A stretch of 64,000 bases of DNA from Salegentibacter echinorum (GTDB lineage Bacteria > Bacteroidota > Bacteroidia > Flavobacteriales > Flavobacteriaceae), in assembly GCF_900129445.1 (NCBI RefSeq), contig NZ_FQVT01000002.1:434001-498000 (forward strand), given 5' to 3'. The notes under the pieces were generated by a model that had not been told where the DNA came from, searched no databases, and was given only the letters and a program-made list of their open reading frames with translations. The stretch's first letter is position 1; every line of letters starts with the position of its first letter. Made by a program: the position numbers and the translations under genes. Shown here one piece after another: positions 43,243 through 61,020 of the stretch.

Positions 43243-43277
43243 GTTAAAAGTTAGGGGTTAAAAGTTATTAGTTTATA
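43243..43277. repeat. Solo array of five GTT heptamers
   Basis: On the plus strand five units in exact 7-base register: GTTAAAA, GTTAGGG, GTTAAAA, GTTATTA, GTTTATA. It lies between the DUF59 and DUF2480 genes of the suf region, has the same unit type as the arrays that bracket the four-helix genes at 50057 and 59762, but no gene is enclosed. Confidence 0.85.
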
Positions 43278-44515: not shown

Positions 44516-45754
44516 TTATGAAAGCATCATTTTTGCTTTCTTCAACGCTTCAATAAAACGGTCTATTTCTTCTTTGGTATTATAGAACGAAAAAGATGCC
44601 CGAACCGTACCCGGAATTTTATAAAAATCCATTATGGGTTGCGCACAATGATGCCCGGTTCTAACCGCTATGCCCATCTTATCTACAAGTGTTCCGATAT
44701 CGTAGGGGTGAAGCCCTTCAATATTAAAAGAAATTACCGCTGTTTTTTCGCGGGATGTGCCGTAGAACTGCATACCTTCAATCTCCTGAAGTTTTAATGT
44801 TGCATAGTTCAGCAATTCTTCTTCGTAGCGCGCAATAGGCTCAAAACCTATGGCATTCATATAATCTAAGGCTGCGCCAAATGCGATACCACCACAAATA
44901 TTTGGCGTTCCCGCTTCAAATTTATGCGGAAGATCGGCATAAGTGGTTTTATCGAAACTTACCGTTGCAATCATTTCGCCACCACCCTGGTAAGGAGGCA
45001 TTTTATTAAGCCATTCTTCTTTTCCATATAAAATACCAACCCCTGTTGGTCCACACATTTTATGGGCAGAAACCACGTAAAAATCTGCATCTAATGCCTG
45101 TACATCGGCTTTAATATGCGGTGCTGCCTGGGCGCCGTCAATCAAAACCGCTGCGTTGTATTCGTGGGCTTTATCAATTATCTTCTTAATAGGATTGATA
45201 GTGCCCAAAGCGTTGGAAACGTGATTCACGAAAACCATTTTAGTTTTTTCTGAAAGTAAGGCCTCAAATTCCTCATAAACAAGTTCACCTTCCTGGTTCA
45301 TGGGAATCACTTTTAGAACGGCCCCGGTTTTCTCACAAAGTATTTGCCAGGGAACAATATTGGAATGGTGTTCCATCGCCGAAACCAGAATTTCATCACC
45401 TTTTTTTAGAATAGAGGCGAATCCATTGGCAACGAGATTTATCCCATGGGTGGTGCCGGCAGTGAATATAATTTCATGTAATTTTTCAGCGTTAAAATGT
45501 TGTTGAATGGTTTTTCGGGCAGCCTCATATTTATCGGTCGCTTCTTGTGAGAGACTGTGCACGCCCCGGTGAATGTTTGCATTGTAGTTAGAATAATAAT
45601 CTACAATAGCATCCATCACCTGCTTAGGGGTTTGCGAAGTAGCCGCATTGTCCAGGTAAACCAGTGGATAACCATTCACTTCCCTGTTTAGCACAGGAAA
45701 ATCCTTTCTTATCTTTTCCAGGTTTAAAGCTATATTATTGGTAGCAATACTCAT
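44516..45754 (-). CDS. sufS: Cysteine desulfurase SufS
   Basis: The 412-residue PLP enzyme takes sulfur from cysteine and hands it to SufE. The PLP lysine lies in SAHKMCGPTG (K232) and the active-site cysteine in RTGHHCAQP (C370), both at SufS-like (group II) spacing. Motifs YLDNAATSQTP and AMEHHSNIVPW are present. Length is normal. It follows sufD after 174 bases that contain a hairpin. Confidence 0.96.
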   Translation of the reverse strand: MSIATNNIALNLEKIRKDFPVLNREVNGYPLVYLDNAATSQTPKQVMDAIVDYYSNYNANIHRGVHSLSQEATDKYEAARKTIQQHFNAEKLHEIIFTAGTTHGINLVANGFASILKKGDEILVSAMEHHSNIVPWQILCEKTGAVLKVIPMNQEGELVYEEFEALLSEKTKMVFVNHVSNALGTINPIKKIIDKAHEYNAAVLIDGAQAAPHIKADVQALDADFYVVSAHKMCGPTGVGILYGKEEWLNKMPPYQGGGEMIATVSFDKTTYADLPHKFEAGTPNICGGIAFGAALDYMNAIGFEPIARYEEELLNYATLKLQEIEGMQFYGTSREKTAVISFNIEGLHPYDIGTLVDKMGIAVRTGHHCAQPIMDFYKIPGTVRASFSFYNTKEEIDRFIEALKKAKMMLS

Positions 45755-45796
45755 TTTCTTAAATTTAGTTTGAGGGTTTCTTTTATGCTACGCTCT

Positions 45797-45842
45797 AATT
45801 GATATTAATCCCGACTCGCACCAGGCTCACCGGGATCAATTC
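45797..45842. repeat. Hairpin between sufS and sufD
   Basis: AATTGAT and TCCCG (with a five-base bulge) pair with CGGGATCAATT at 45831-45841; the loop carries a second CTCGCACCAGGCTCAC pattern. It may slow transcription or be an RNA-processing site. No long U tract follows. Confidence 0.5.
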
Positions 45843-45928
45843 ACTTAGACGGGTCTGCGACTTTTCTTGAGTAATCTTGGCTCAAATCAAATAATCAGGT
45901 TATTTAATTTTAAGACCGTAGCCCGAAT

Positions 45929-47245
45929 TTATAGGTGAAACCCTAATTCGATACCTAATTTTTTAGCGATAAGTTTATTAATTCGCTTTTTGATCTCTGG
46001 AATTTTTACACTTTCCAGTACATTATTGGCAAAAGCATACATCAACAGACCTCTGGCTTCTTTCTTCGGAATCCCGCGGGACTCTAGATAAAATAAAGCT
46101 TCTTCGTCTAATTGGCCAATGGTACAGCCGTGACTACATTTTACATCGTCTGCAAAAATTTCCAGCTGAGGTTTGGAGTTAATCGTAGCTCTGTCGCTTA
46201 ATAAAACATTATTGTTAGATTGATAAGCATTAATCTTTTGCGCTATCTTATCTACATAAACCTTTCCATTAAAAACACCCACCGATTTATCATCAAAAAT
46301 ACCTTTGTAATCCTGATGTGATTCACAGTTAGGCTGGGTATGGTGTACCAAAGTATTGTGATCTACATGTTGTTTTCCTTCAATAAGGGTGATTCCTTTC
46401 ATCGTAGAATCTATACGTTCTCCTTTTTGATAGAAGTTAAGGTTGTTACGCGTTAATTTTCCGCCCAGGGAAAAAGTATGCACAGAGCAAAAACTTTCAG
46501 ACTGCTGCTCTATAAACGTATTATCTATTAGAGAAGCTGAAAGATTATCATTTTGAATTTTGTAGTAGTCAACAATCGCGCGTTTATCTGCAAATACCTC
46601 GGTGACACTGTTGGTCAACACCGGTTGTTCGGTTAAGCTTTGGTGACGCTCAATAATTTGACAATGTGAATTTTCATCTACCACGATTAAATTACGTGGT
46701 TGAACAAATAGTGAAGATTCATTGCCGGTAGAGAAATTTATGATCTGGATGGGCTTATCGGCCATCGTGTTTTTGTGAATGTGTATAAATGCCCCTTCTT
46801 TAGTAAAAGCGGTGTTTAGGGAATTTAAGCCATTTTTGGGCGCTATTTTGTTAAAATAGTTGTCAATTACCGGTTTGTATTGATCTTTATTTATGGCCGA
46901 AGACATTAGACAAGCGTCAATCTTATCATGGGTGGTGCTGGATAAATGGGAGGAATATACCCCATCTATAAACACCAAATCATAAGTATCTATCTCGTGA
47001 ATAAGATACTTTTGAATATCCCGGTATTCCAAAGAATTCTCTCCTTTAGGAAAGATATTATAGTCTTCCTTTAATACGCTTTTAAGTGAAGTATATTTGT
47101 AAGCTTCTTCCTTTTTACCCGGAAAACCTATAGTTTCAAAATCCTTTATGGCCTGGCTTCTTATATTTCTAAGATCATCGTTACTTCCTGTATATTCTTC
47201 TTCAAAAGCCAGGAAAGATGATACTAATTTTTCTTTAAAATCCAT
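45929..47245 (-). CDS. sufD: SUF scaffold subunit SufD
   Basis: The 438-residue protein is part of the SufBC2D scaffold that assembles Fe-S clusters. It has the beta-helix core (about 150-370) and the C-terminal SufBD segment with KCSHGCTIGQLDEEALFYLE and SRGIPKKEARGLLMYAFANN, the latter two being diagnostic. The ATG at 47245 is used; the preceding in-frame TTG adds only eight residues. It is followed by sufS and preceded by sufC, in the usual Suf order sufCDS. Confidence 0.95.
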   Translation of the reverse strand: MDFKEKLVSSFLAFEEEYTGSNDDLRNIRSQAIKDFETIGFPGKKEEAYKYTSLKSVLKEDYNIFPKGENSLEYRDIQKYLIHEIDTYDLVFIDGVYSSHLSSTTHDKIDACLMSSAINKDQYKPVIDNYFNKIAPKNGLNSLNTAFTKEGAFIHIHKNTMADKPIQIINFSTGNESSLFVQPRNLIVVDENSHCQIIERHQSLTEQPVLTNSVTEVFADKRAIVDYYKIQNDNLSASLIDNTFIEQQSESFCSVHTFSLGGKLTRNNLNFYQKGERIDSTMKGITLIEGKQHVDHNTLVHHTQPNCESHQDYKGIFDDKSVGVFNGKVYVDKIAQKINAYQSNNNVLLSDRATINSKPQLEIFADDVKCSHGCTIGQLDEEALFYLESRGIPKKEARGLLMYAFANNVLESVKIPEIKKRINKLIAKKLGIELGFHL

Positions 47246-47376
47246 TTTCAATTCTTTTGTGCTTTCCAATATATACTATTGGTGCAGTTTTATAATATTG
47301 CCAATTTCAATTATTTCAGTCTTACAAGTTTCCTGTTTTCAAATAAACCTGAGACTTTTACTGAAATCTTTCTGAA

Positions 47377-48129
47377 TTAAACCGCTTTTTCGGTTTTAAT
47401 CCATTCGTAACCTCTTTCGTCTAACTCTTTGGCAAGATCTTTTCCACCAGATTTTACAATCTTACCATCTACCATTACGTGCACAAAATCTGGCACGATA
47501 TAATTTAGCAATCTTTGGTAGTGGGTAATAAGTAATACAGATTTGTCTTTAGATTTAAGACTATTTACACCATCGGCCACAGTTTTAAGAGCATCAATAT
47601 CCAAACCAGAATCTGTTTCGTCCAGTATGGAAAGTTTTGGGTCTAACATAGCCATTTGAAAAATCTCATTTCTTTTCTTTTCTCCTCCCGAAAAACCTTC
47701 GTTTAAAGATCTGGACAAAAATTTACGATCTATGCCCAGCATTTCAGATTTCTCACGAATTTTCTTCAGCATTTCATTGGCAGGCATATTTTCCTGTCCA
47801 TTGGCATTTCTGTGCGCGTTGATAGCTGTTCTTATAAAGTTGGTTACTGAAACCCCTGGAATCTCTACCGGATATTGAAAGGAAAGAAAGATACCTCTAT
47901 GCGCTCTTTCATCTGGATCCATTTCTGAAATTTCTGTATCTTCAAAAATGATTTCTCCCTGGGTTTGATCAAACTCCTCTCTCCCGGCAATAATTGAAGA
48001 AAGAGTACTTTTTCCAGAACCGTTTGGTCCCATAATGGCGTGAACTTCCCCTGCGTTGATCTCTAAATCAATACCTTTAAGGATTTCTTTATCTTCTATA
48101 CTTGCGTGTAAATTCTTTATTTTTAGCAT
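47377..48129 (-). CDS. sufC: Fe-S assembly ATPase SufC
   Basis: The 250-residue ABC-type ATPase powers SufBC2D. Walker A is GPNGSGKST (about 35-43), the signature is SGGEKKRNE (about 148) and Walker B is LSILDETDSGLD. It binds SufB and SufD, encoded on both sides. The protein lacks membrane domains, as expected. It begins 36 bases after the NlpE-like lipoprotein gene. A small CCCG/CGGG hairpin lies in between. Confidence 0.96.
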   Translation of the reverse strand: MLKIKNLHASIEDKEILKGIDLEINAGEVHAIMGPNGSGKSTLSSIIAGREEFDQTQGEIIFEDTEISEMDPDERAHRGIFLSFQYPVEIPGVSVTNFIRTAINAHRNANGQENMPANEMLKKIREKSEMLGIDRKFLSRSLNEGFSGGEKKRNEIFQMAMLDPKLSILDETDSGLDIDALKTVADGVNSLKSKDKSVLLITHYQRLLNYIVPDFVHVMVDGKIVKSGGKDLAKELDERGYEWIKTEKAV

Positions 48130-48144
48130 AAATTCTCGGTATGC

Positions 48145-48161
48145 ATCCCGAAAAACGGGAT
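48145..48161. repeat. Small hairpin between the NlpE-like gene and sufC
   Basis: ATCCCG and CGGGAT enclose five A residues. It fills the gap between the stop of the 48166 gene and the sufC start, so it could influence relative sufC expression. Confidence 0.55.
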
Positions 48162-48165
48162 TAGT

Positions 48166-48555
48166 TTATTTATTATCTTTTTTTTCTGAAACATTTTCAG
48201 TTTCCAATATTTCTAATATCTCGCGTATTTCTATATTTTCACTCCAGCTATCCCTGTGATCACTGGGAACAATTTTTCCTTTAACCTTAACTGAAACCAT
48301 ATCAAAATCTTCTTTTTTGTAAGGTACAATTTTTTCTGCCAAAACTTTAGACATTGAATCTACGGTTACCCCATATACAAAATCACTTCCTCTAAGTACT
48401 GCTGCATCCCCGGCATAAATAAACTTCCCGGTGAGCACTTGAATACTATCGGGTACTTTTTCAGTTTCAGGCTGGTTCATTAGTTCCTCGCGACCTTCAT
48501 CCTGGCAGGAGAAAGCTGTTATAGCGAGCGTTAATATGAACAAAATCTTCTTCAT
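48166..48555 (-). CDS. Lipoprotein with an NlpE-C-like OB domain inside the suf operon
   Basis: The 129-residue protein has a lipobox (TAFSC, Cys17). Residues about 40-112 read LTGKFIYAGDAAVLRGSDFV, then a GKI strand, which resembles the C-terminal OB domain of NlpE (where a GRFTYMADAAxF start is typical). NlpE is an outer-membrane sensor of envelope and copper stress. The match is by eye and partial; the Cpx-type N-terminal domain of NlpE is absent. It lies 23 bases downstream of sufB. Like the META lipoprotein it is an envelope gene in a cytoplasmic assembly operon. Confidence 0.7.
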   Translation of the reverse strand: MKKILFILTLAITAFSCQDEGREELMNQPETEKVPDSIQVLTGKFIYAGDAAVLRGSDFVYGVTVDSMSKVLAEKIVPYKKEDFDMVSVKVKGKIVPSDHRDSWSENIEIREILEILETENVSEKKDNK

Positions 48556-48578
48556 TATTTCAGGCTTTAATTCCTGTT

Positions 48579-50024
48579 TTATCCTACAGAACCTTCCAAA
48601 GAAATCTCCAATAGTTTTTGGGCTTCTACCGCAAACTCCATTGGTAATTTGTTTAATACCTCTTTACTAAATCCATTTACTATAAGTGCAATGGCTTTTT
48701 CGGTATCAATTCCTCTTTGGTTACAATAGAAAATTTGGTCTTCTCCAATTTTACTCGTTGTGGCTTCGTGTTCTACCTGTCCCGTTTTGTTTTTTACTTC
48801 AATATAAGGGAAGGTATGCGCGCCACATTTGTTACCCATTAACAGGGAGTCACATTCTGAGAAGTTACGAGCGTTCTTTGCCCGGCTGTTTATCTGTACC
48901 AATCCGCGGTAAGAGTTCTGCGACTCACCGGCAGAAATACCTTTAGAGATAATTGTACTTTTTGTGTTTTTGCCAAGGTGGATCATTTTAGTACCGGTAT
49001 CGGCCTGCTGGAAATTATTGGTTACTGCGATAGAGTAAAATTCTCCAATAGAATTATCCCCTTTTAACACACAGGATGGATATTTCCATGTTACTGCAGA
49101 ACCGGTTTCCACTTGGGTCCAGGAAATTTTTGCATTTTTTTCGCAAAGTCCGCGTTTGGTTACAAAGTTAAATACGCCGCCTTTTCCATCTTTAGATCCC
49201 GGGAACCAGTTTTGAACGGTACTGTATTTAATTTCGGCATCATCCAAAGCAATCAATTCTACCACCGCAGCGTGTAGTTGATTCTCGTCCCGCATTGGCG
49301 CGGTGCATCCTTCCAGGTAGCTTACGTAACTTTCGGGTTCTGCGATTACAAGGGTACGCTCAAATTGTCCTGTTCCAGCCTGATTAATTCTAAAATAGGT
49401 AGATAGTTCCATTGGGCAACGCACGCCTTTTGGGATATAACAGAAAGAACCATCGCTAAATACGGCCGAGTTTAACGCGGCATAGAAGTTATCTGTTTTT
49501 GGAACTACGGTTCCCAAATATTTCTTTACCAACTCGGGATGCTCTCTTATCGCTTCTGATATAGAGCAGAATATAATTCCTTTCTCGGCGAGGTTCTTTT
49601 TAAAAGTTGTTGTAACAGATACAGAGTCCATTACCACATCTACTGCTACGCCAGCCAGTTTTTTCTGTTCATCTACAGAAATACCCAGTTTTTTAAAAGT
49701 ATCCAAAAGCTCTGGATCTACTTCATCTAAACTATCGTATTTTGGTTTCTTATTAGGCGCAGAATAGTAGGAAATATCCTGAAAATCTGGTTTCGGATAA
49801 TTCACATTAGGCCAATCTGGCTCCTCCAGGGTTTGCCAGTGGCGAAACGCCTCCAGGCGCCACTCTGTCATCCACTCGGGCTCCTCTTTCTTTTTAGAAA
49901 TCGCCCTCACAATATCTTCATCTAAGCCCACAGGAAAGGTGTCTGACTCAATATCGGTGTAAAACCCATACTCATACTCCTTAGTCTCGAGCTCTTTTTT
50001 TAAATCATCTTCAGTATATGCCAT
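48579..50024 (-). CDS. sufB: SUF scaffold subunit SufB
   Basis: The 481-residue protein is the main scaffold of SufBC2D and holds the nascent cluster. It has the SufB N-terminal motif ([20 protein letters not shown], about 55-74), the beta-helix core with [17 protein letters not shown], and the C-terminal [20 protein letters not shown]. The cysteines in CNQRG and elsewhere are at known positions. It starts 33 bases from the stop codon of the four-helix-bundle gene, whose downstream heptamer arm reaches to within ten bases of the SufB ATG. Confidence 0.97.
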
Positions 50025-50033
50025 CTCTTATTA

Positions 50034-50486
50034 GTTCAAAGTTTAAAGTTTCGGGTTCAAGGTTCATTCCTGAATTTTGTTCCCTTCATATCACATTTTT
50101 GCAAATAGTTCATTAAAGAACTTATTTGCTTACTAAGCGCTATTATTTTTTTTCGATAAATATTAATTTCATCCTGATTTATATAATCGCGATCAAAAGC
50201 TCTGTAAAGCTGTGATCTTGTTTCGCCACAAGATGCTTTGGCTATAGACAAAAATTGATTAAATTCTTTATTGCCATTTCTCTCAAAACCCTCGGCTATA
50301 TTGTCCATAATTGAACCGGAGGATCCATTTAATTGGTCGTACAGTCTAAAATCAGATTTAAGGTTGGATTTTTCTTTTATCTGATAAACAATTTGACAAA
50401 TCTCCCTGGCACCTTGCCAAATTTCTAAATCCTCAAATTGTTTAATTGTTCCCATAACCTTAAACTTTGAACTTTAAACCTTGAAC
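50034..50486 (-). mobile_element. Heptamer-bracketed four-helix-bundle cassette in the suf operon
   Basis: Plus-strand units at 50034-50068 are GTTCAAA, GTTTAAA, GTTTCGG, GTTCAAG, GTTCATT. Minus-strand units from 50486 to 50452 are GTTCAAG, GTTTAAA, GTTCAAA, GTTTAAG, GTTATGG. So five heptamers face five inverted ones around the gene 50057-50455, and the last upstream unit contains the start codon. The arrangement resembles rRNA intervening sequences, in which a stem brackets a gene of this family. Mobility is inferred. Confidence 0.65.
50057..50455 (-). CDS. Four-helix-bundle protein (23S rRNA intervening-sequence protein family)
   Basis: The 132-residue protein belongs to the S23/IVP family (four-helix bundle) known from 23S rRNA intervening sequences and related to the Avd accessory protein of diversity-generating retroelements. 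Motifs are FEDLEIWQGAREIC at the start and SIMDNIAEGFERN in the middle. It has no enzyme motif; it is basic enough to bind RNA. It sits between sufA and sufB, in the same direction, and no rRNA is near. Heptamer arms overlap its start codon and its stop codon. Its relation to the copy in sdh is clear but distant. Confidence 0.88.
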   Translation of the reverse strand: MGTIKQFEDLEIWQGAREICQIVYQIKEKSNLKSDFRLYDQLNGSSGSIMDNIAEGFERNGNKEFNQFLSIAKASCGETRSQLYRAFDRDYINQDEINIYRKKIIALSKQISSLMNYLQKCDMKGTKFRNEP

Positions 50487-50490
50487 CAAT

Positions 50491-50820
50491 TTATAAAGAG
50501 AAACTCTCTCCACAGCCGCAGGTTCTTTCTGCATTGGGGTTGTTGAAAACAAATCCTTTTCCATTGAGACCTCCCGAATATTCTAAAATAGTGCCCGCGA
50601 GGTACAAAACGCTGCGCTTGTTCACTACAATTTTAACTTCATTATCTTCAAAAAGTTTGTCATCGTTGGTTTGGGCTTTATCAAAATTTAATTCATAAGA
50701 TAAACCAGAACATCCTCCGCTTTTAACGCCTACCCGAACGAAGTCCTGAGTATTGTCAAAACCTCCTTCCAGCATTAAAGCGGCAATCTTTTTCTTAGCG
50801 TCTTCGCTTACTTTTATCAT
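50491..50820 (-). CDS. sufA: A-type Fe-S carrier (SufA/IscA-like)
   Basis: The 109-residue protein carries Fe-S clusters from the scaffold to targets. The three ligand cysteines are in SGGCSGLSYEL (C37) and TCGCGESF (C101 and C103). Size and fold are normal for HesB/IscA. It is the first gene of the suf operon. SufA and IscA cannot be told apart by sequence alone; the name follows the operon context. A promoter-like element lies 30 bases upstream. Confidence 0.93.
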   Translation of the reverse strand: MIKVSEDAKKKIAALMLEGGFDNTQDFVRVGVKSGGCSGLSYELNFDKAQTNDDKLFEDNEVKIVVNKRSVLYLAGTILEYSGGLNGKGFVFNNPNAERTCGCGESFSL

Positions 50821-50850
50821 AGCTTAAAAAGATTAATTCTAAATTAGGCA

Positions 50851-50858
50851 CAAATATA
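50851..50858 (-). promoter_or_regulatory. Candidate -7 element of the suf operon
   Basis: On the minus strand TATATTTG matches TAnnTTTG. It lies 30 bases before the sufA ATG. No TTG occurs at the expected distance, and no Fur or IscR-like site was recognised. Confidence 0.5.
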
Positions 50859-51318
50859 CTATAAAACAAGCGTATTACCATAAAGCATTTATATGTTTTA
50901 AGAATAGTTTGATAGGTCTTATCAATTCTGAAATCAATCGAAATTATTTTCTTATTTAACTGAAAATAAGCTGGTTTCTATAAGAAATTAAACGGAAGTG
51001 ATAATTTCTCCTGGCCGAAGATTATGTTTTGTGGAAGGTTTCTGAAGAAACGGTTTAGGAGATTTTAAAAATAATTGAATTTGATATTTTTTTCCGAAGA
51101 AATGGAACCGGAAAACTAACAAAATAAACAGTGTTATTTCTTGTTTCTTTGTTCTCTAATCTTTAACCAGGCGTTACTGAAAAACTATAAACTTCGCTGA
51201 ATGGAAAGCAGCTACAATAAATCCTTAAAAAAATATATACTTGAGCTTAATCTAACGGAAGCTTTATGTGGAGAGTTTCAGAATATTCGTTTATTTTGCA
51301 GAACTAAATTAGCGAGAT
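50859..51318. other. Intergenic region between sufA and thiL
   Basis: About 460 bases separate the divergent genes. A 41-codon open frame (51201-51326) overlaps the thiL start by eight bases but resembles no family. No RNA element or thiamine riboswitch pattern was recognised. Confidence 0.4.
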
Positions 51319-52371
51319 ATGTTTGAGAATAATCAGGAAATGCGTACAAACCTTTCAGAATTAGGAGAGTTTGGATTGATAGATCATTTAACTAAAGGTT
51401 TTACGCCAAAACTGCCTTCTACAATAAAAGGGATTGGGGACGATGCCGCCGTGCTGGATTTTAAAGAAAAACAAACCCTGGTTTCAACCGATCTTTTAGT
51501 AGAAGGCGTGCATTTTGATCTGGCTTATATGCCTTTAAAACATTTGGGATATAAAGCTGTAATGGTAAATGTATCTGATATTTATGCGATGAACGCCAGG
51601 GCTACCCAGATTACGGTTTCTATCGCTGCTTCAAACAGGTTTCCGGTAGAGGCGCTTGAGGAATTGTATGCCGGGATCGAGCTGGCAGCAAAACTTTATA
51701 ACGTAGATGTGGTTGGCGGGGATACTACTTCTTCTACTTCTGGCTTAATGATTAGTATTACTGCTTTAGGGGAAGCGGAAAAAGAAGATGTGGTGTATCG
51801 TAGCGGGGCAAAACCCAATGATTTGCTGGTGGTAACCGGTGATCTTGGCGCTGCTTATATGGGCTTGCAAATCCTGGAACGAGAAAAAGAGGTATTTAAA
51901 GCTAATCCCAATGCGCAGCCAGACCTGGATCCTTATACATATCTTATTGAACGCCAGTTAAAACCTGAAGCTAGAAAAGATATTCCGCCTTTGCTAGAAG
52001 AATTGGAAGTAAAACCGACTTCCATGATAGACATTAGCGACGGACTCTCTTCTGAAATAATTCATCTTTGTAAAAACTCTCAGGTAGGTGCAAACTTATT
52101 TGAAGAGAAAATTCCTTTAGATCCTGCGGTAATTTCCGTTTGTGAGGAATTTGATTTAGATAGCACCACCATCGCCTTAAGTGGGGGGGAAGATTATGAG
52201 TTACTATTTAGTATTTCCCAGGATGATTATGATAAGATAAAAGCAAATCCTAATTTATCAATAATTGGTCACATAACCGAAGAAAAAGAAGGCATGCATT
52301 TAATCACCCGTGCCAGCCAAAAATTACCACTTATCGCAAAAGGTTGGAATTCTATGGAAGGTAAAGAGTAA
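51319..52371 (+). CDS. thiL: Thiamine-monophosphate kinase
   Basis: The 350-residue enzyme phosphorylates thiamine monophosphate to thiamine diphosphate, the active cofactor. The N-terminal AIR-synthase-like domain shows GIGDDAAVLD (about 32-41) and VSTDLLVEGVHFD (about 49-61), and later VVGGDTTSS (about 131-139). The C-terminal half has DISDGLSSEIIHLC and ALSGGEDYELLF, both diagnostic. Length is slightly longer than in E. coli (325). It is monocistronic. The preceding 41-codon frame is not supported. Confidence 0.95.
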   Translation: MFENNQEMRTNLSELGEFGLIDHLTKGFTPKLPSTIKGIGDDAAVLDFKEKQTLVSTDLLVEGVHFDLAYMPLKHLGYKAVMVNVSDIYAMNARATQITVSIAASNRFPVEALEELYAGIELAAKLYNVDVVGGDTTSSTSGLMISITALGEAEKEDVVYRSGAKPNDLLVVTGDLGAAYMGLQILEREKEVFKANPNAQPDLDPYTYLIERQLKPEARKDIPPLLEELEVKPTSMIDISDGLSSEIIHLCKNSQVGANLFEEKIPLDPAVISVCEEFDLDSTTIALSGGEDYELLFSISQDDYDKIKANPNLSIIGHITEEKEGMHLITRASQKLPLIAKGWNSMEGKE

Positions 52372-52411
52372 AGTTTCCTTTTTCCTAAAATTAAATTTGA
52401 AGATTTTGCGC

Positions 52412-52663
52412 TTAAGAGGCGTGCTTAAGGTGTTTACGCTTTCTTTTTTGATGAATTTGTGCAATATACTCGTTGGTTTCTTTAAACTTAGGAGTTAAAC
52501 GAGCTAGAAGGCCATTGGCGGTATCGGTCATTTCCATGCCGCACTTTCTGCAAGTATATTCGTGTACATGATCTGTCACATTTTTTGATACCACTAACTT
52601 GTGTCCAAAAATGCTGCAAAAAACTTTGGCGAACGAAAATGTTTTGGGGTTTCTTTCCTTCAT
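52412..52663 (-). CDS. Small zinc-finger-like protein, DUF1660-like
   Basis: The 83-residue protein has C16, H21, C38 and C41 in the pattern CSIFGHK ... CRKCGME, as in DUF1660-like proteins. The C-terminal half is strongly basic (HQKRKRKHLKHAS). It may bind a zinc ion and nucleic acid. No signal peptide. It converges with thiL with 40 bases between stop codons and probably is a genuine gene, but function is unknown. Confidence 0.68.
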   Translation of the reverse strand: MKERNPKTFSFAKVFCSIFGHKLVVSKNVTDHVHEYTCRKCGMEMTDTANGLLARLTPKFKETNEYIAQIHQKRKRKHLKHAS

Positions 52664-52734
52664 AAAAGTTTGATTTTATTTTAATTGTGTCTATAAAATA
52701 TTCTAAAAAGCTAACTTTTAATTAAACGTTTATA

Positions 52735-53508
52735 TTAATCGATAAATTGCAAAATTTCCAGCAGTTCCTTTTTGTTTTCTAAAAAAGATAAATGCCCGTC
52801 TGGGAGACTTTTAAACTCACTTCCACAACGTTTTGAAATCAGTTTTATTGTATTGTAATCTACAATGGGATCATTAATCCCCGCCACAATAATTTTTTGA
52901 TGTTCAAAGTTAGCAAAAAGTTCGAGATGGTCTTTGCGAACTTTCATACCTTTTATTGCTGCATAAATCCCGGTCTTAGGAATGTTGAGCGCGCGCAGCT
53001 TTATCACTTCCAGTTGAGGTTTAAAGCGCTTATAATTTTCGCGGGTCATTAAATTGGCAATGGCCATCTTAACAAAAGCATTTTTATTTCGTAAAACAAA
53101 ATTTGCAGCCCTATCCCGGTTTATTTTGCGTTTGTCATCGTCTGCAAAAGGAGTGGAGTTTACTAGCACCAATGCATTTAATAGCATAGGGAATTTATAA
53201 CACAATTCCAAACCCACATAACCACCCATGGAATGTCCCGCCAGTGCCACTTTTTTAATGTTTAACTCGTCTAAAACGGTTTTTACAGCTTCTGCCATTT
53301 CCCCCATGCTGTGAATACTTCCAAAACTACCCGAGTCTCCATGACCCGGCAAATCAATACAAACGACCTGGCGTTTTAAAGAAAGTTCTTCAGCAAAATC
53401 TGTCCAAATTTCTTTGCTTTCCAGGAAGCCGTGAAGGAGCACAAGCGGATTTCCGGTTCCTTTAACGGTATAGTGAATAGCGGCCTTTTTGTAGGTTGTT
53501 TTTCTCAA
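52735..53508 (-). CDS. Alpha/beta hydrolase
   Basis: The 257-residue hydrolase has the classical fold: oxyanion region LVLLHGFLESKEIW (about 22-35), nucleophile elbow GHSMGG (S93), acid VAGINDPIVD (about D212) and final histidine in PDGHLSFLE (about H238). Substrate unknown; such proteins may be esterases or cofactor hydrolases. The start is a TTG at 53508, because no in-frame ATG occurs before residue 68 and the N-terminus is otherwise standard. A terminator of the upstream gene lies only eight bases away. Confidence 0.88.
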   Translation of the reverse strand: MRKTTYKKAAIHYTVKGTGNPLVLLHGFLESKEIWTDFAEELSLKRQVVCIDLPGHGDSGSFGSIHSMGEMAEAVKTVLDELNIKKVALAGHSMGGYVGLELCYKFPMLLNALVLVNSTPFADDDKRKINRDRAANFVLRNKNAFVKMAIANLMTRENYKRFKPQLEVIKLRALNIPKTGIYAAIKGMKVRKDHLELFANFEHQKIIVAGINDPIVDYNTIKLISKRCGSEFKSLPDGHLSFLENKKELLEILQFID

Positions 53509-53515
53509 TTTTAAA

Positions 53516-53553
53516 TATATAAAAAGCCACGAATCTAAAGGAAATCCGTGGCT
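53516..53553 (-). terminator. Intrinsic terminator after pepP
   Basis: On the minus strand AGCCACG and CGTGGCT form the stem and are followed by TTTTTATAT. It lies about 155 bases past the pepP stop and directly before the hydrolase start, so it separates the two transcripts; the hydrolase promoter must overlap or follow it. Confidence 0.8.
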
Positions 53554-53707
53554 CTGATTCTAATAATTTGTTGAATTCGCAATTCTAAAAGTTTCACTTC
53601 GAAGACGCTAGTACAGTAGCAGTCTTTCTTTTATGAGTCGAATTAACCAATCACAACAAATTGCTGCGCTGCTAATGCCACTCGCAAAAACTTTCAGGTT
53701 TAACGAA

Positions 53708-55000
53708 TTAAGAATTCATGATCTCTTCAATTTCTTCAACTTCAATTGGGATGTTGCCCATTAAATTGAATGGTTCGCCTTCTTTTTGGATCACCACGTC
53801 ATCTTCCAGACGAATTCCAAAACCTTCATCTGGTAAATAAATACCGGGTTCTACGGTAAAAACCTGATTTGGTTTCATGGGTTCTGTTAGAATACCATAA
53901 TCATGCGTATCTAAACCTATGTTATGCGCGGTACCGTGCATAAAGTATTTTTTATAAGCCGGCCATTTTGGGTTTTCATTTTGTACATCGGCTTTATCTA
54001 AAAGCCCAAGATCCAGTAATTCGGAAGTCATTAGTTTTCCAACTTCTTTATGGTATTCGGCCCAAATTGTTCCAGGTACCAACCATTTGGTAGCTTCTTT
54101 TTTCACCTTGTTTACCGTATTGTAAATTTGCTTCTGCCGCTGGCTAAATTTTCCTGAAACCGGGATGGTGCGCGTCATATCGCTGGAATAGTTGGCATAT
54201 TCTGCTCCGGTGTCCAATAAAATTAAGTCCCCGGCTTTACATTCCTGGTTATTTTCGGTGTAATGTAAAACATTAGCATTGTTTCCGCTGGCAATTATTG
54301 GGGTGTAAGCAAATCCCCGGCTGCGGTTTCTAATCATTTCGTGCCAGTATTCAGCTTCAATTTCATGTTCCCAAACTCCGGGTTTAGTGAATTTTAAAGC
54401 TCTACGGAAAGCTTTTTCGGTAATGTTGCAAGCCTTTTGCATTAAATCTAATTCAATAGGATCTTTTACCGAACGTAAGCGTTGTAAGATAGGATTACTT
54501 TTTGCTACCCGGTGCGCAGGATATTTCTCTTTACACCATTTTATAAACCTATCGTCCCGGGTTTCGGTTTGTACGCTGGCCCTGTAGTGCTCGTTGGTAT
54601 TAAAATATACGGTTTCGCACTGGGACATCAATTCAAAAAAAACTTTTTCGAAATCCTGAAGCCAGTAAACTGTTTCTATTCCGCTTACTTCCAGTGCTTT
54701 TTCTTTGGTTAGTTTTGCTCCTTCCCAAACGGCAATATGCGGGTTGGTCTCGGTGAGAAAAAGAATCTCGCGATGTTCTGGTTTTGGCGCGTCTGGAAAT
54801 AATACTAAAATAGCCTCTTCCTGATCTACCCCACTAAGATAAAATAGATCGCGGTTTTGTTGAAACGGCAAAGTGCTATCGGCGCCAATGGGATAAATGT
54901 CATTAGCATTAAAAACAGCAAGGCTGCTGGATTTCATGCCCGCCATAAAACTTTTGCGGTTTTTTATAAAAAGTTTGCTGTCAATCTGTTCGTATCTCAT
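53708..55000 (-). CDS. pepP: Xaa-Pro aminopeptidase (M24 family)
   Basis: The 430-residue enzyme removes an N-terminal residue before proline. It has the creatinase-like N-domain (about 1-165, with FYLSGVDQEEAILVLF-like segment LFYLSGVDQEEA) and the pita-bread catalytic domain with metal ligands in LLDTGAEYANYSSDMTR (two Asp), GTAHNIGLDTHD (His), TVEPGIY (Glu) and IRLEDDVV (Glu). Length equals the E. coli enzyme (441). A promoter-like element lies 67 bases upstream. Confidence 0.95.
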   Translation of the reverse strand: MRYEQIDSKLFIKNRKSFMAGMKSSSLAVFNANDIYPIGADSTLPFQQNRDLFYLSGVDQEEAILVLFPDAPKPEHREILFLTETNPHIAVWEGAKLTKEKALEVSGIETVYWLQDFEKVFFELMSQCETVYFNTNEHYRASVQTETRDDRFIKWCKEKYPAHRVAKSNPILQRLRSVKDPIELDLMQKACNITEKAFRRALKFTKPGVWEHEIEAEYWHEMIRNRSRGFAYTPIIASGNNANVLHYTENNQECKAGDLILLDTGAEYANYSSDMTRTIPVSGKFSQRQKQIYNTVNKVKKEATKWLVPGTIWAEYHKEVGKLMTSELLDLGLLDKADVQNENPKWPAYKKYFMHGTAHNIGLDTHDYGILTEPMKPNQVFTVEPGIYLPDEGFGIRLEDDVVIQKEGEPFNLMGNIPIEVEEIEEIMNS

Positions 55001-55067
55001 AAATAGCTATTTTTATACCTTACTGGTTCTAAAAACCATTAAGGCTTTAAATTTTGAATTCGAATTG

Positions 55068-55075
55068 CAAAGTTA
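55068..55075 (-). promoter_or_regulatory. Candidate -7 element for pepP
   Basis: TAACTTTG on the minus strand matches TAnnTTTG; a TTG lies 25 bases further upstream, slightly outside the normal 17-23 range. The 55076-55342 remainder of the gap has no recognised feature. Confidence 0.45.
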
Positions 55076-55342
55076 TTAATATTCTGGGGAGTTGAAGGTT
55101 CAAATGGTCCAATCTAAATAATTGTTTCTTTTATAGTCTAAAGGTTGTATCGAGGGTTATGTCGCATGGAAGTTATGTCAATTTAACTTTGTAAAATCGC
55201 ATGTAAAAGGCGAAGTCCCTTTTTTTGTTCTGTAATGCTGCGATTGGTTTGCTTGGAAATTAGAAATAAGAAAATAGCACGACCTTGAAGGTTCTATGGT
55301 TAAATTGGTATTAAACTACAGCTCCTATGTGCTAAAGCTTGC

Positions 55343-55633
55343 TTACTCATATAAATTCAACTTATTTTTAAGCGCTACATTTTGGTTTTGTAGCTTCTTT
55401 ACCTGGCTCAATAAATTCTGAATAGCTTCGAGACCTTCCAGGTTAATATCGAGTTCATAATGTAGCCTTCTTAGTTTTTCAAATTCAGAAATCTCGTCAC
55501 AATGTACATAGGTTATTTTTTGGACGGTTACTGTATGTAAAAGTCCGCTCTCAGTTAATGCATGAACAAAATTGCGTTCCACTTTGTAGCGGGTGCAAAT
55601 CTCATCGGTTGGTATTAAATCTTCTAAATTCAT
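55343..55633 (-). CDS. cbpM: Chaperone modulator CbpM
   Basis: The 96-residue protein is a MerR-like helical modulator of the DnaJ homologue CbpA. It has [20 protein letters not shown] near 12-31 (the winged-helix part), a [20 protein letters not shown] segment and a short coiled coil ([20 protein letters not shown]). It overlaps the cbpA stop by four bases (ATGA type), so expression is coupled, as in other bacteria. Confidence 0.92.
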
Positions 55634-56571
55634 GAGCGTAATTTTTGAAGTTCTTTAATTAATTCTTTCTCCCTGTTACTTAGTTTAGTGGGCATTTTGA
55701 TGTTGTAGGTGATAATTAAATCCCCAAATTCGCCTTTCTTTTTGTATTTAGGGAAGCCTTTACCTTTAAGCCTTACTTTATTGCCGGGTTGGGTTTCGGG
55801 TTTAACATTTAACTTTACCGAGCCATCAAAGGTTTTGGTAGTAATTTCTCCACCTAGCAGCGCTGTGTAAAGATCTAACTCCACGTTTTGATATAAATTT
55901 TCTTTTTCTCGTTTAAAGCTGGTATCATTAAGGATGTTGAATGTAATATAAAGGTCGCCTTTTGGTCCACCTTGAACGCCTGGGCCGCCGTGTCCCTTAA
56001 TTTTTATGGTTTGTCCATTTTCTACTCCCGCTGGGATGGTTAACCTAATATTTTTGCCATTTACGGTAATAGTTTGTTTGTGACTGGTGTAAACATCACT
56101 AAGCCTAAGCTGAAGTTCTGCATTAAAATCCTGGCCTTTAAAATGACCTCCTCTTCCAGCACCTTGCGATCTTGCGCGGCTACCAAACATATCTCCAAAA
56201 AAGTCTGAAAAAGTGTCTTCATCAAAATTGCCAGAATAGGAATAGTCTCCCTGGTTGCCGCCAAAACCTGCATTTTGGTTAAATCCGCCGCCGGCATAAT
56301 TTCCGCTACTTTGCTGTTGTTTTTTAGCTTCTTCATAAGCATCGGCGTGTTGCCAGTCTTTTCCGTATTGATCGTATTTTTTTCGTTTTTCAGGATCGCT
56401 CAATACCTCGTGCGCTTCATTTATTTGTTGAAATTTATGCTGGGCTTCTTTATTGTTGGGATTTAAATCTGGATGATATTTTCGGGCTAACTTGCGATAG
56501 GCCTTTTTAATATCGGACTCGCTGGCGCCTTTATCCAAATTAAGCAGCTTATAATAATCTATAAAATCCAT
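55630..56571 (-). CDS. cbpA: DnaJ-family co-chaperone CbpA
   Basis: The 313-residue protein has an N-terminal J domain (about 1-70) with the HPD motif in KYHPDLN, a Gly/Phe-rich linker (about 75-140) and two C-terminal beta-sandwich domains, without the zinc-finger cysteines of DnaJ, so it is the CbpA type. It stimulates DnaK and binds substrates. The gene precedes cbpM. Length is normal (CbpA 306). Confidence 0.93.
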
Positions 56572-56991
56572 AAAATTTGGTTGTTTCGATTGATTAACAA
56601 ACTATTTTCCTTTCAGGTTAAGTTCTTTTAGGGCGGGACCAGAGCCGGGGATTTAATTGCCCGGAGCTTGCCTCGATATAAAAGAGCTTTCTTCGGAAGC
56701 ATACCTCGTAGCTTAAGGTCGAGGTTGTTGATTTCCGAAGAATAAATAGAAAGCTATTGCTAAAATAAACCCTGTTTATTGTTAACCTGGCTTTACGTTT
56801 AAAATAGTTTGGATGAATTTACTAAAAAACAAGCATAGTCTTCGTTAAGCTTTTGTAAAATCAAAAAAATGCATTAATTGCACCTCGTTTAATGATTTAT
56901 GTAGGGACAGATTAAATTTTCTTTCTGTATTTGCAGCTTTCTCGTCTTCTTTGTATTGGTTCTAAATAGCGGCTATTTTGGCAGGCAAAAG
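56572..56991. other. Intergenic region between cbpA and sdhC
   Basis: About 420 bases upstream of the sdhC promoter hold the hairpin repeat copy C (56666-56742) and otherwise AT-rich sequence without a coding frame. A cbpA promoter must lie in the left part but no match to consensus was recognised. Confidence 0.45.
56666..56742. repeat. Dispersed hairpin repeat, copy C
   Basis: This copy is about 75% identical over 70 bases to 62912-62980. Outer arms TTCTTCGGAA (56689) and TTCCGAAGAA (to 56742) are perfect; inner arms ACCTCG (56703) and CGAGGT (to 56725) are also perfect. It lies in the divergent cbpA/sdhC region. Confidence 0.8.
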
Positions 56992-57022
56992 TTGTACGTA
57001 ACTAAATTGAGCTGTATTTTTG
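56992..57022 (+). promoter_or_regulatory. Promoter of the sdh operon
   Basis: TTG at 56992-56994, 20 bases, then TATTTTTG at 57015-57022: a full match to the Bacteroidota sigma consensus TTG-N(17-23)-TAnnTTTG. Transcription should start at about 57029, giving a 5' leader of about 24 bases before sdhC. Confidence 0.85.
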
Positions 57023-57052
57023 ACGTAAATTTTCTATAAAATAATCATACCA

Positions 57053-57715
57053 ATGAGTGGATTTCTAAATTCAACTATAGCAAGAAAATTTGCTATGGCC
57101 TTATCGGGACTTTTTCTGGTCTTATTTTTAGCTCAGCATTTTACAATCAATTTTACTTCGGTTATTAGCAAGGACCTATTCAATGATATCTCTCATTTTA
57201 TGGGGACTAACTTTGTAGTCCAGGCATTCTTACAGCCTATTTTAATTCTTGGGGTTATTTTTCACTTTGTAATGGGTTTTATTCTGGAAGCTAAAAACAG
57301 AAGTGCCAGGAACATTTCTTACGTTAAATTTAACGGTAGTGCAAATTCCAGTTGGATGTCCAGGAATATGATTTATTCTGGTTTAGTGGTTTTGGCTTTC
57401 CTGGGCTTGCATTTTTACGATTTCTGGTTTCCCGAGATGGTTCATAAGTATTTTGAATCTAATCCAGAGGATGTCGCCAGATATTATGATGAGTTAGTTG
57501 TGAAATTTCAAAGCCCGGTTAGAACCATATTATATGTAATCTCATTTGTGTTTTTAAGTCTTCACCTTATTCACGGTTTTTCTTCTTCATTCCAGTCTGT
57601 GGGGTGGAGTAACAAATATGCCAAAGGTCTACGGGGCTTTACTGTAGCTTATGCGATTATTATTCCACTAGGATTTATTTTTATAGCCCTTTTTCACTAT
57701 ATTAATAACCTTTAA
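57053..57715 (+). CDS. sdhC: Succinate dehydrogenase cytochrome b subunit
   Basis: The 220-residue membrane protein anchors SdhAB and transfers electrons to menaquinone. Five membrane helices (about 15-35, 57-77, 100-120, 155-175, 195-215) with histidines FLAQHFTINF (H28), FHFVMGF (H72), LHFYDFW (H122) and LHLIHGF (H167/H170) that ligate haems match the B-type single-subunit anchor used by Bacteroidota. It begins the sdhCAB operon. Length is typical. Confidence 0.94.
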   Translation: MSGFLNSTIARKFAMALSGLFLVLFLAQHFTINFTSVISKDLFNDISHFMGTNFVVQAFLQPILILGVIFHFVMGFILEAKNRSARNISYVKFNGSANSSWMSRNMIYSGLVVLAFLGLHFYDFWFPEMVHKYFESNPEDVARYYDELVVKFQSPVRTILYVISFVFLSLHLIHGFSSSFQSVGWSNKYAKGLRGFTVAYAIIIPLGFIFIALFHYINNL

Positions 57716-57727
57716 AACTTAAGATTT

Positions 57728-59731
57728 ATGTCAGTTTTAGACTCCAAAGAACCAAAAGGGCCTCTAGCAGAAAAGTGGACCAATCATAAGAATAATATTA
57801 ATCTTGTAAACCCTGCCAATAAGCGTAATATAGATATTATTGTAGTTGGAACCGGGTTAGCCGGTGGTAGTGCCGCCGCAACCCTGGCAGAATTGGGCTA
57901 TAATGTAAAAACTTTTTGTTACCAGGATTCTCCAAGACGTGCTCACTCTATTGCGGCGCAGGGAGGTATTAACGCTTCTAAGAACTACCAGGGTGATGGC
58001 GATTCAGACTATCGCTTATTCTATGATACTGTAAAAGGAGGCGACTACCGCTCCCGCGAATCTAATGTTTATAGATTGGCCGAGGTTTCCGGTAATATTA
58101 TAGACCAGTGTGTAGCGCAAGGCGTTCCTTTTGCGCGGGAGTATGGAGGTTATTTAGATAACCGTTCATTTGGCGGGGTTTTAGTGTCCCGTACGTTCTA
58201 TGCTAAAGGACAAACAGGTCAGCAATTATTGTTGGGCGCTTATTCTGCTATGAACCGTCAAATTAATCGTGGTAAGATTCAGCCTTGCAACCGTCATGAA
58301 ATGATGGATTTGGTTTTGGTAGACGGCAAAGCCCGAGGAATTATCGCCAGGGATATGATTACCGGCGAGATTGAACGTCACTCTGCTCACGCAGTAGTGC
58401 TTGCTTCCGGTGGGTACGGTAACGTATTTTTCCTTTCTACAAATGCGATGGGATGTAACGTGATGGCAGCCTGGAGGGCACACCGTAAAGGAGCTTACTT
58501 TGCCAATCCTTGCTATACTCAAATTCACCCAACCTGTATTCCGGTTACGGGAGATCATCAGTCTAAGCTAACCCTTATGTCTGAATCTCTTCGGAATGAC
58601 GGACGAATCTGGGTTCCCAAAAAGAAAGAAGATGCTGAAGCTATTAGGAAAGGAGAGAAGAAGCCAACTGAACTTTCAGAAGAGGAAAGAGATTATTATT
58701 TAGAAAGACGATATCCCGCTTTTGGTAACCTCGTGCCTCGTGATGTGGCTTCCAGGGCTGCTAAAGAACGTTGCGATGCCGGGTTTGGTGTAAATAAAAC
58801 CGGGCAGGCAGTATTTTTGGATTTTAAGAGCGCTATACAACGCTACGGAAAAGAAAAAGCTTTTACCGCGGGACATAAAAATCCATCTAAAGAGGAAATT
58901 ACACGATTGGGGAAAGAAGTGGTTGCTTCAAAATATGGAAACCTCTTTGACATGTACAATAAAATTGTAGATCAAAATCCTTATGAAACCCCAATGATGA
59001 TCTACCCGGCTGTACATTACACCATGGGCGGACTTTGGGTAGATTATAACCTGCAAACCACAGTGCCCGGATGTTATGCAACAGGAGAAGCTAATTTCTC
59101 AGACCATGGAGCCAATAGATTAGGAGCTTCAGCTTTAATGCAGGGTCTGGCCGATGGTTATTTTGTGCTACCATATACCATAGGTGATTACCTGTCTAAT
59201 GATATTCGTACCGGGAAAATAGAAAGCGATACTAAAGAATTTGATGAAGCTGAAAAAGCTGTAAAAGATCGTATCGAGAAATTGATGAATGCCGGTGGAA
59301 AAAAATCTGTAGATTCTTATCACAAGGAATTAGGGCAAATCATGTGGAATAAATGTGGAATGGCCCGTAATGCTAAAGATCTTGAAGATGCAATTGGCGA
59401 AATAGCTGTTTTGCGTGAAGATTTTTGGAAAAACGTAAAAGTACCCGGAAAAGCAAACGGGAAAAATGCCGAGCTTGAAAAAGCCGGTAGGGTAGCAGAT
59501 TTCTTAGAATTAGGAGAGTTATTTGCTAAGGATGCCCTGCATAGAAATGAATCTTGTGGAGGTCACTTTAGGGAAGAATATCAAACTGAAGAAGGAGAAG
59601 CTTTAAGGGACGACGAAAACTTTAAATATGTAGCGGCCTGGGAATATACCGGCAACCCTAGAGAAGCAAAACTTCACAAGGAAGATCTGGTATTTGAAAA
59701 TATAGAATTGAAAACAAGAAGTTATAAGTAG
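57728..59731 (+). CDS. sdhA: Succinate dehydrogenase/fumarate reductase flavoprotein subunit
   Basis: The 667-residue subunit oxidises succinate to fumarate. The FAD dinucleotide motif [19 protein letters not shown] (about 39-57) and the covalent-FAD histidine in [11 protein letters not shown] (H73) are present. Active-site residues lie in HPTCIPVTG and [12 protein letters not shown], and the ligand motif [12 protein letters not shown] follows. The length is typical of B-type enzymes (about 660). It is 12 bases from sdhC. A four-helix-bundle gene separates it from sdhB. Confidence 0.97.
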
Positions 59732-60181
59732 GTTATTAGTTAGGGGTTATGCGTTAATCATATGGGGAATATTCTATCTTTTGAAGAATTAGAGTGCTGG
59801 AAAGCCTCGCGAGAACTTAGAAGATTTGTTTCTGAGATAGTGCTTCCCAGATTCCCTGAATTTGAAAAATATTCCCTAACAAGTCAACTACGTCGTTCTT
59901 CGAGATCAATAGGTGACAACATAGCCGAAGGTTTTGGAAGATTTAATTATCAGGAAAACATTCAGGCTTGTAGAATTGCTCGTGGTTCGCTTTGTGAAGC
60001 ATTAAATCAAGTTATAACCGCGAAAGATGAAAATTATATTGATATAAAAACTTTGGAAGAATTTAGAAATAGATTCAATAGTACCAAAGCAATTTTAAAT
60101 GGTTATATTAATTATTTAAAGAATGCTAAAAATGGTTAGGAAGAAGAGGGTGCACTTTACCCTTAACTCATAACCCATAAC
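59732..60181 (+). mobile_element. Heptamer-bracketed four-helix-bundle cassette in the sdh operon
   Basis: Plus-strand units 59732-59759 are GTTATTA, GTTAGGG, GTTATGC, GTTAATC. Minus-strand units from 60181 down to 60154 are GTTATGG, GTTATGA, GTTAAGG, GTAAAGT. The arms share a 19-base inverted repeat (59739-59757 with 60163-60181) with 17 matches. The first array starts immediately after the sdhA stop codon TAG. The gene 59762-60139 lies between the arms. Mobility is inferred. Confidence 0.68.
59762..60139 (+). CDS. Four-helix-bundle protein (23S rRNA intervening-sequence protein family)
   Basis: The 125-residue protein is of the same IVP family as the one at 50057. Matching motifs are FEELECWKASRELRR at the start and SIGDNIAEGFGRFN near 50-63. 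The two proteins look about 30% identical, so the two cassettes are not recent duplicates. It interrupts the common sdhA-sdhB order, in the direction of the operon. The ATG is three bases past the upstream heptamer array and no ribosome-binding site is visible. Function unknown; RNA binding is a family-based inference. Confidence 0.88.
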   Translation: MGNILSFEELECWKASRELRRFVSEIVLPRFPEFEKYSLTSQLRRSSRSIGDNIAEGFGRFNYQENIQACRIARGSLCEALNQVITAKDENYIDIKTLEEFRNRFNSTKAILNGYINYLKNAKNG

Positions 60182-60192
60182 AGATTACAATT

Positions 60193-60939: not shown

Positions 60940-60961
60940 ATCTTTTAAATATCGATAAATC

Positions 60962-60996
60962 AAATCCCAAATTCTTTTAGAGTTTGGGATTTTTTA
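60962..60996 (+). terminator. Intrinsic terminator of the sdh operon
   Basis: Arms AAATCCCAAA and TTTGGGATTT with an eleven-base loop are followed by a run of T. It lies 23 bases past the sdhB stop and before the aminotransferase gene. Confidence 0.9.
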
Positions 60997-61020
60997 TGCA
61001 TCTTATTTAAAAATAAGCCG

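Follow-up and report, generated by a model that had tools for sequence, protein, structure and literature searches.

In Salegentibacter echinorum, a gene of the IVP family (23S_rRNA_IVP) sits within the suf operon between two mirrored arrays of tandem heptamers. This cassette is read here, with moderate confidence, as an operon-borne variant of the intervening sequences (IVSs) of 23S rRNA, namely an RNA hairpin that holds an IVP gene in its loop and is probably cut in its stem. The same arrangement is also present in operons of bacteria that are only distantly related, and so it looks like a type of genetic element, resident in operons, that has been overlooked.

Anatomy of the suf cassette

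The window, i.e. the whole 64-kb stretch of DNA analyzed, contains an IVP gene flanked on each side by five inverted GTT heptamers (Table 1). Read directly on the minus strand, the 5' arm consists of the units GTTCAAG, GTTTAAA, GTTCAAA, GTTTAAG and GTTATGG, the fifth of which holds the start ATG of the gene (50455-50453). The 3' arm, in plus-strand reading, consists of GTTCAAA, GTTTAAA, GTTTCGG, GTTCAAG and GTTCATT, with the stop codon (50057-50059) inside the fourth unit. Such a fusion of gene and arms into a single IVP-family unit, lying between sufA and sufB in operon direction, had been described in the first-pass annotation; the anatomy is confirmed by the arm sequences, by the profile matches of the protein and by the minus-strand orientation of all three genes. 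The upstream and downstream proteins are presumably of the SufA and SufB types, the second on the basis of its sequence. The 5' arm begins 4 nt past the SufA-type stop codon and runs straight into the IVP ATG, while the 3' array ends 9 nt ahead of the SufB-type ATG, leaving gaps of 35 nt (sufA stop to IVP ATG) and 32 nt (IVP stop to sufB ATG).

Table 1. Features of the suf cassette and its surroundings in the window
Feature	Position	Strand	Basis
5' arm, five tandem GTT heptamers	50452..50486	-	sequence; pairs with 3' arm in predicted fold
IVP gene, 132 aa, four-helix bundle	50057..50455	-	PF05635 1.6e-31; TIGR02436 1.5e-28; AlphaFold pLDDT 91.4
3' arm, five inverted heptamers holding stop codon	50034..50068	-	sequence; predicted fold
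Upstream host gene, presumed SufA-type iron-sulfur assembly protein, 109 aa	50491..50820	-	ORF reading
Downstream host gene, presumed SufB-type protein, 481 aa	48579..50024	-	ORF reading
Sister IVP cassette between sdhA-type and sdhB-type genes	59762..60139	+	TIGR02436 match

With at most one mismatch, GTTYRARGTTYRARGTT matches four times in the window, always within the arms of the suf cassette (0.07 matches expected by chance; at least four in 0 of 100 shuffles). No second ORF of at least 60 aa lies between the arms, where the IVP ORF stands alone, and Rfam returned for window positions 45000-62000 one weak match, below the gathering score and away from the cassette. The arms of the sister sdh cassette, at approximately 59721-59759 and 60163-60181, are built of GTTATRN units. 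The upstream SufA-type protein matches once per genome in 28 of 31 genomes, and at locus L324 the IVP gene follows one whose product is annotated as 'iron-sulfur cluster assembly accessory protein'. The latter locus comes from a so-called Riemerella plasmid record that also carries lepA and looks chromosomal.

The encoded protein scores well above the curated cut-offs of PF05635 (109.1 versus 33.8 bits) and of TIGR02436, the 'four helix bundle protein' family (99.2 versus 24 bits). Its AlphaFold model places helices at residues 11-29, 36-58, 62-88 and 94-123 and matches the four-helix bundle of solved members (Foldseek best: 2gsc and 2rld), both of whose entries contain five chains; 2gsc is called a homopentamer in a published account. 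The IVP protein is under purifying selection, with a median dN/dS of 0.09 (range 0.03-0.47) over the 87 of 152 same-site pairs that had dS under 1.6.

Copies and distribution

The source genome contains seven TIGR02436 matches, including the suf copy. By eye, all seven sit between codirectional genes (the ORFs of four were examined), at junctions that we take to be sufA|sufB, ffh|folD, sdhA|sdhB, hisH|hisA, CoA-transferase subunits, thiolase|acyl-CoA dehydrogenase and an ABC-type ATPase|unnamed gene. Each copy has its own repeat unit, and the inverted-arm score is 13-17.5 in six copies and 9.5 in one (L006). TIGR02436 was found in 14/15 genomes of the genus, 89/120 of the family and 65/148 of the order, and in none of 14 well-known control genomes included in the same searches. 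Four identically scoring matches near contig ends of one genus genome (G005:C5:119128, C7:1396, C32:1396 and C32:11145) perhaps reflect a duplicated region or an assembly repeat.

The full set comprises 217 IVP genes, retained from 245 matching ORFs after removal of overlapping calls, short flanks and identical proteins, and includes seven genes on plasmids, six of them cyanobacterial. Sites, defined as clusters of neighbours by BLAST, number 81, an over-count because some single sites are split, such as (6,2)/(6,21) and (49,48)/(48,49); they vary widely, with cas, nos, his and sdh junctions among them. Both neighbours lie on the strand of the IVP gene itself in 201 of the 210 cases in which both are known, versus 88/135 for other genes of the same loci, a control that takes in genes adjoining cassettes (Fisher p 1e-13). 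Only three IVP genes are antisense among the 204 between codirectional genes, and the median gaps to the neighbouring stop and start codons are 51 and 47 nt.

IVP matches occur in 21 plasmid records, of which seven were examined, namely six cyanobacterial ones and that of L324. Among the six cyanobacterial ones, mirrored arrays have inverted scores of 26 (L319), 23 (L323) and 17.5 (L320), as well as 14.5 with a period of 8 (L325). Another (L321) has very long arrays whose nearest pair is not mirrored by score (4), and the last (L322) lies between opposite-strand genes and gives a weak signal (8). Three of the six IVP genes lie inside cas operons (L320, L321 and L325; cas6|cas4 twice, cas10|cmr3), where they may have been inserted and not be components of the cas system.

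Heptamer arms around IVP genes

IVP genes usually have periodic, mirrored flanks. In the first, smaller locus set (99 IVP genes and 77 control genes), the best tandem period was 7, 14 or 21 in 65/99 upstream and 65/99 downstream IVP flanks versus 19/77 and 18/77 control flanks, respectively. An inverted-arm score of at least 12 was reached by 69/99 IVP genes, 0/77 control genes and 17/400 arm pairs drawn from different loci, and 30/99 IVP genes have no good inverted arm pair. Across the 217 genes, at least four identical triplets occur at spacing 7 in 86 5' and 89 3' flanks and at spacing 8 in 14 and 11, respectively, every other spacing from 4 to 12 yielding at most four such flanks. Arms therefore surround most other copies tested, and the refuting outcome named beforehand, absence of GTT arms from most other copies in Flavobacteriaceae, was not found, but the unit is often not GTT and varies by site and protein group. 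A fixed triplet core in each heptamer with the remaining positions free is unsupported, as mismatches fall evenly over the seven phases (2.43 invariant phases observed versus 2.37 expected in 313 imperfect arrays).

The unit is related to the protein. In two groups defined here by a short motif, arms are GTT or ATT in 46/58 cases (IMDN group) or GTT in 5/72 and AGA, AGC, TAG or GTA in 36 (SxPxNIAEG group); among IVPs of neither group GTT occurs in 22/37 arms, so that the link is not clean. Arms of different sites are more alike the higher the protein identity, the likeness increasing from 7.1 below 40% and 7.3 at 40-50% to 9.3 at 50-60%, 10.8 at 60-70% and 12.2 at 70-80%, at which identity same-site arms reach 14.4; the value for the class of at least 80% (22.2, 14 pairs) is swollen by split sites. 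Such a relation is expected alike if arms travel with the gene and if the protein recognizes them, and does not separate these two possibilities.

Arm pairing and the start codon

The proposal that the arms can pair agrees with the predicted fold of the window cassette, in which helices of 21 and 10 bp join the arms (-117.4 kcal/mol; z -5.3; 0/100 shuffles as good). When one cassette was taken from each of the 81 sites, the predicted duplex of a cassette's own arms beat that with arms from other sites in 66 and that with shuffled arms in 69. Minimum-energy folds contain at least 15 arm-to-arm base pairs at 49/81 sites, versus 19 after swapping between sites and 21 after shuffling, with fewer than 15 linking pairs at the remaining 32. 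Within orthologous groups of three or more (146 of the 217 cassettes, 21 groups), own arms outpair arms swapped in from orthologues in 106/146 cassettes, with the opposite result in 40 (means -23.2 versus -18.7 kcal/mol; binomial p 4e-8, which ignores relatedness); in two of the groups, (26,27) and (36,37), the own-arm mean is weaker than the swapped mean. Since own arms outpair swapped orthologous arms, the two arms tend to change together, as those of a constrained stem would. DNA-level copying between arms could be an alternative source of this advantage.

Concealment of the start codon in the stem, also suggested in the first-pass annotation, is not supported. In the window cassette, the predicted stem stops just before the AUG, which lies at the loop edge and is touched by a 2-bp helix only, while the stop codon UGA is paired within the stem. 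Over the 81 sites, the start AUG is paired in 70, a frequency close to that of the genes' remaining AUGs (375/459), and pairs with the 3' side at 11; start-codon hiding as a general device was accordingly rejected. A duplex-based count of paired start codons (158/217) was set aside, as the program extends weak pairing into the coding sequence.

Inheritance, loss and relics

The nearest relative of an IVP occupies the same site in 136/202 cases and another site in 66, some of which are split sites. The IMDN group has 59 proteins, of which the 55 with a site label occupy 23 sites and therefore require at least 22 site changes on any tree; the tree obtained needs 22 (it was built quickly, has 7 starred branches among its 56 inner ones and includes one of the three Flavobacterium turcicum copies). 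On it, the window copy groups among the sufA|sufB copies of Salinimicrobium, Aequorivita and Christiangramia, and the sufA|sufB site needs 2 changes for 13 rows versus a shuffled mean of 11.9. We interpret this pattern as largely vertical descent, combined with recurrent arrival at new junctions. In F. turcicum (L185), IVPs occupy all three suf junctions (sufA|sufB, sufB|sufC and sufC|sufD), and the latter two, at 82% identity, are mutual nearest relatives in the set.

Loss has been repeated and has left relics. The spacing of sufA and sufB in relatives, a check proposed in the first-pass annotation, ranges from 44 to 133 nt over the 13 other genomes of the genus in which the junction could be read, all of which lack an intact suf IVP gene. 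A KGTKF-like C-terminal scrap is kept in 4/13 of these junctions, and the match to the 3' arm is better than in all of 50 shuffles in 10/13, so that most carry relics. In view of these relics, the suf insert looks ancestral and decayed in the genus rather than newly inserted. Outside the genus the junction is occupied again, for example at L132 and in a large number of named flavobacteria. Of 14 genus genomes, three have an IVP at sdhA|sdhB (with two different arm units), two are unreadable there and nine have, by eye, gene-less heptamer hairpins, eight of them AGTATTGAG-like and one GTTATAA-like.

A comparable case is a Flavobacterium junction with IVP cassettes bearing GTTGCGG-type arms in two genomes and a gene-less hairpin of CAGTTTA-type units in a third (L333). 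Gene-less mirrored hairpins are thus seen, with a different unit, at junctions that are IVP-occupied in other genomes (L265-L272, L275; L333). At nosD|nosF, two genomes carry a cassette and in a third (L344), whose NosD is 72% identical, the genes overlap by 4 nt; this is the best empty site, and a clean recent insertion with a matching empty site was not found among the junctions compared.

Period-7 arrays and hairpins without a gene

Period-7 repeats are also frequent in the source genome away from IVP genes. In 800 kb, noncoding tandem arrays number 18 for period 7 and 12 for period 14, versus at most 4 for each of the other periods from 4 to 13 and 3 for period 15; four identical triplets at spacing 7 form 25 noncoding sets, at least one of which is an IVP arm, versus 1-6 sets at other spacings and 2.1 in shuffles. 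Several arrays lie 5-26 nt beyond a called gene end. One-sided arrays on contig C28, for example at 416884-417092, 512690-512717, 554964-554998 and 591217-591261 (within L299-L308), have neither an IVP gene nor a mirrored partner within 900 nt. Profile searches around 11 one-sided arrays revealed no convincing IVP remains (best E 0.44), and the idea that they are scars could be compared at 8 junctions only in this genome. The one-sided arrays may represent scars or seeds, or else a separate tendency of such genomes. In the window itself, an array of GTTAAAAGTTAGGGGTTAAAAGTTA at 43243-43267 lies beside a gene end and lacks a mirrored partner. A dispersed REP-like hairpin (variants of ATTGCCGCGCTCC..CGTCGCTCGCAATGA) occurs near several CAGT-unit heptamer arrays on C28 (near 260450, 417165, 550240 and 620760).

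Mirrored arrays without a gene are rare by comparison. None of 33 long ungapped hairpins in C28 has periodic arms, and the window has no such hairpin. A scan for three units a side over 864 kb, which misses known gene-less hairpins when the three known sdhA|sdhB ones are scored, found one convergent hairpin (C28:653252), a count equalled at spacings 5 and 11. A scan of junctions of 40-200 nt for two units a side found 1/229 in C28 (800 kb) and 0/23 in the window, with one each at the control spacings 6 and 8.

Comparison with known systems

The closest known counterpart is the IVS of Coxiella 23S rRNA. In the available portion of PMC4990558, it is described as 428 nt long, located in 23S helix 45, with an IVP ORF in the loop of a 28-bp inverted-repeat stem cleaved by RNase III and with tandem heptamers, variable in number among strains, before the ORF start codon. 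The same text treats IVP-family proteins as lacking a known function, and its authors consider that S23p is not made in vivo and that the ORF is decaying. As far as this account extends, the two elements share an IVP ORF in the loop of an inverted-repeat stem (for the suf cassette, in the predicted fold), a similar size and heptamers ahead of the ORF. In contrast, the suf cassette lies outside the 23S rRNA gene, between genes of the sufA and sufB types; both of its arms contain heptamers, and its protein family is under purifying selection.

Avd of diversity-generating retroelements has the same fold as IVP, with weak E-values (Foldseek: 4dwl, TMq 0.69, E 0.28; 8ub7, E 0.43). Avd works together with a reverse transcriptase, a template and variable repeats at its own locus; the window contig (C29) has no reverse transcriptase match, and both PF00078 matches of the source genome are on contig C30. 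PF00078 matches occur in 11/15 genus genomes. Three near-complete ones without a reverse transcriptase match (G007, G008 and G010) hold 12, 9 and 6 IVP matches; a fourth, 61% complete (G013), has no reverse transcriptase match and two IVP matches, and G011 has eight reverse transcriptase matches and no IVP. A reverse transcriptase partner was rejected on the evidence of the three near-complete genomes, which implies that copies can be retained without such a partner in their own genome.

Heptamer repeats are known from other settings, among them the cyanobacterial STRRs, a comparison system alongside the seven-nucleotide repeats of Nostoc. The P6b stem of the Nostoc trnL intron is built of seven-nucleotide repeats (PMC4476775); like the predicted cassette stem, it is an RNA stem of complementary repeats that shifts between two unit classes, but it is part of a group I intron, and the accessible text mentions no IVP gene. 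Intergenic TAACTGA arrays, often before start codons, have been described in Beggiatoaceae, cyanobacteria and Bacteroidetes; in Gramella forsetii and A. sublithincola, the intergenic regions concerned also contain direct repeats of other heptamers (PMC4679880). That work, in the part available, searched one unit, found nearly all sets to be direct and draws no link to IVP, and 'S23' is absent from its main text. In the available text of PMC3936711, 18 IVP genes in cas loci are treated as having a cas-associated function; like the cassettes they lie among operon genes, and arms are absent from that text. Titles and abstract openings in PMC, which leave most subscription journals outside, yielded no report of heptamer arms around IVP genes outside rRNA.

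Explanations

In the preferred reading, the cassette is an element about 450 nt long that comprises a 5' heptamer array, the IVP gene and a 3' inverted array. Once transcribed within the suf mRNA, the arrays would pair to form a long imperfect stem, whose loop holds the IVP gene. A double-strand-specific RNase, such as the RNase III of the 23S case as given in the available account, would then probably cut the stem, parting sufA from the sufBCD message and freeing the IVP message. The protein, a four-helix bundle whose solved relatives are pentamers, probably binds its own kind of arm or loop RNA. A bolder version holds that hairpin-armed IVP cassettes are a previously undescribed class of RNA-level mobile element, which copy themselves into mRNAs at gene junctions and are converted back to DNA by a shared reverse transcriptase or repair pathway. 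Each protein group would recognize its own heptamer unit, and the 23S rRNA IVS would be one special case. Copying into mRNAs would explain why cassettes are placed only in sense and close up to stop and start codons. We regard this version as unlikely.

A DNA element, whose inverted arrays serve as terminal inverted repeats and which a transposase encoded at another place mobilizes in trans, with RNA pairing as a mere by-product, would accord with inverted ends, a single ORF, the many sites (23 for the 55 IMDN proteins) and the tracking of protein likeness by arm likeness across sites. Against it stand the nearly exclusive sense orientation, end units that differ by site and so lack a fixed sequence, the close fit to stop and start codons and the IVP as the sole ORF of at least 60 aa between the window arms, with no transposase; we consider such an element quite improbable. 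If IVP and hairpin had instead settled in some operons as a host-used regulator that tunes sufA versus sufBCD and spreads mostly vertically, same-site clustering across genera (the 2 changes in 13 rows at sufA|sufB), purifying selection and the triple occupancy of the F. turcicum suf junctions would fit. The lack of an intact suf copy at 13/13 other readable genus junctions and the diversity of sites argue against this, and we hold it distinctly doubtful. Neutral slippage, in which common period-7 microsatellites are mirrored by palindrome correction around an IVP that is an ordinary gene, fits the abundance of period-7 arrays without IVP and the even spread of mismatches. It seems the least credible reading, as inverted period-7 signatures are rare elsewhere (1/229 junctions, the same as for spacings 6 and 8), mirrored arms flank none of the 77 control genes and the association of IVP with arrays holds on cyanobacterial plasmids with other units.

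Implications

The arms give an anatomy to the frequent genes annotated as 'S23 ribosomal' or 'four helix bundle' and tie operon-borne IVP copies to the long-puzzling intervening sequences of 23S rRNA. They also allow the IVP genes described from cas loci to be interpreted differently. As protein group and heptamer unit are related, RNA recognition by IVP can be tested directly, and the cassette provides a model of the possible splitting of operon messages.
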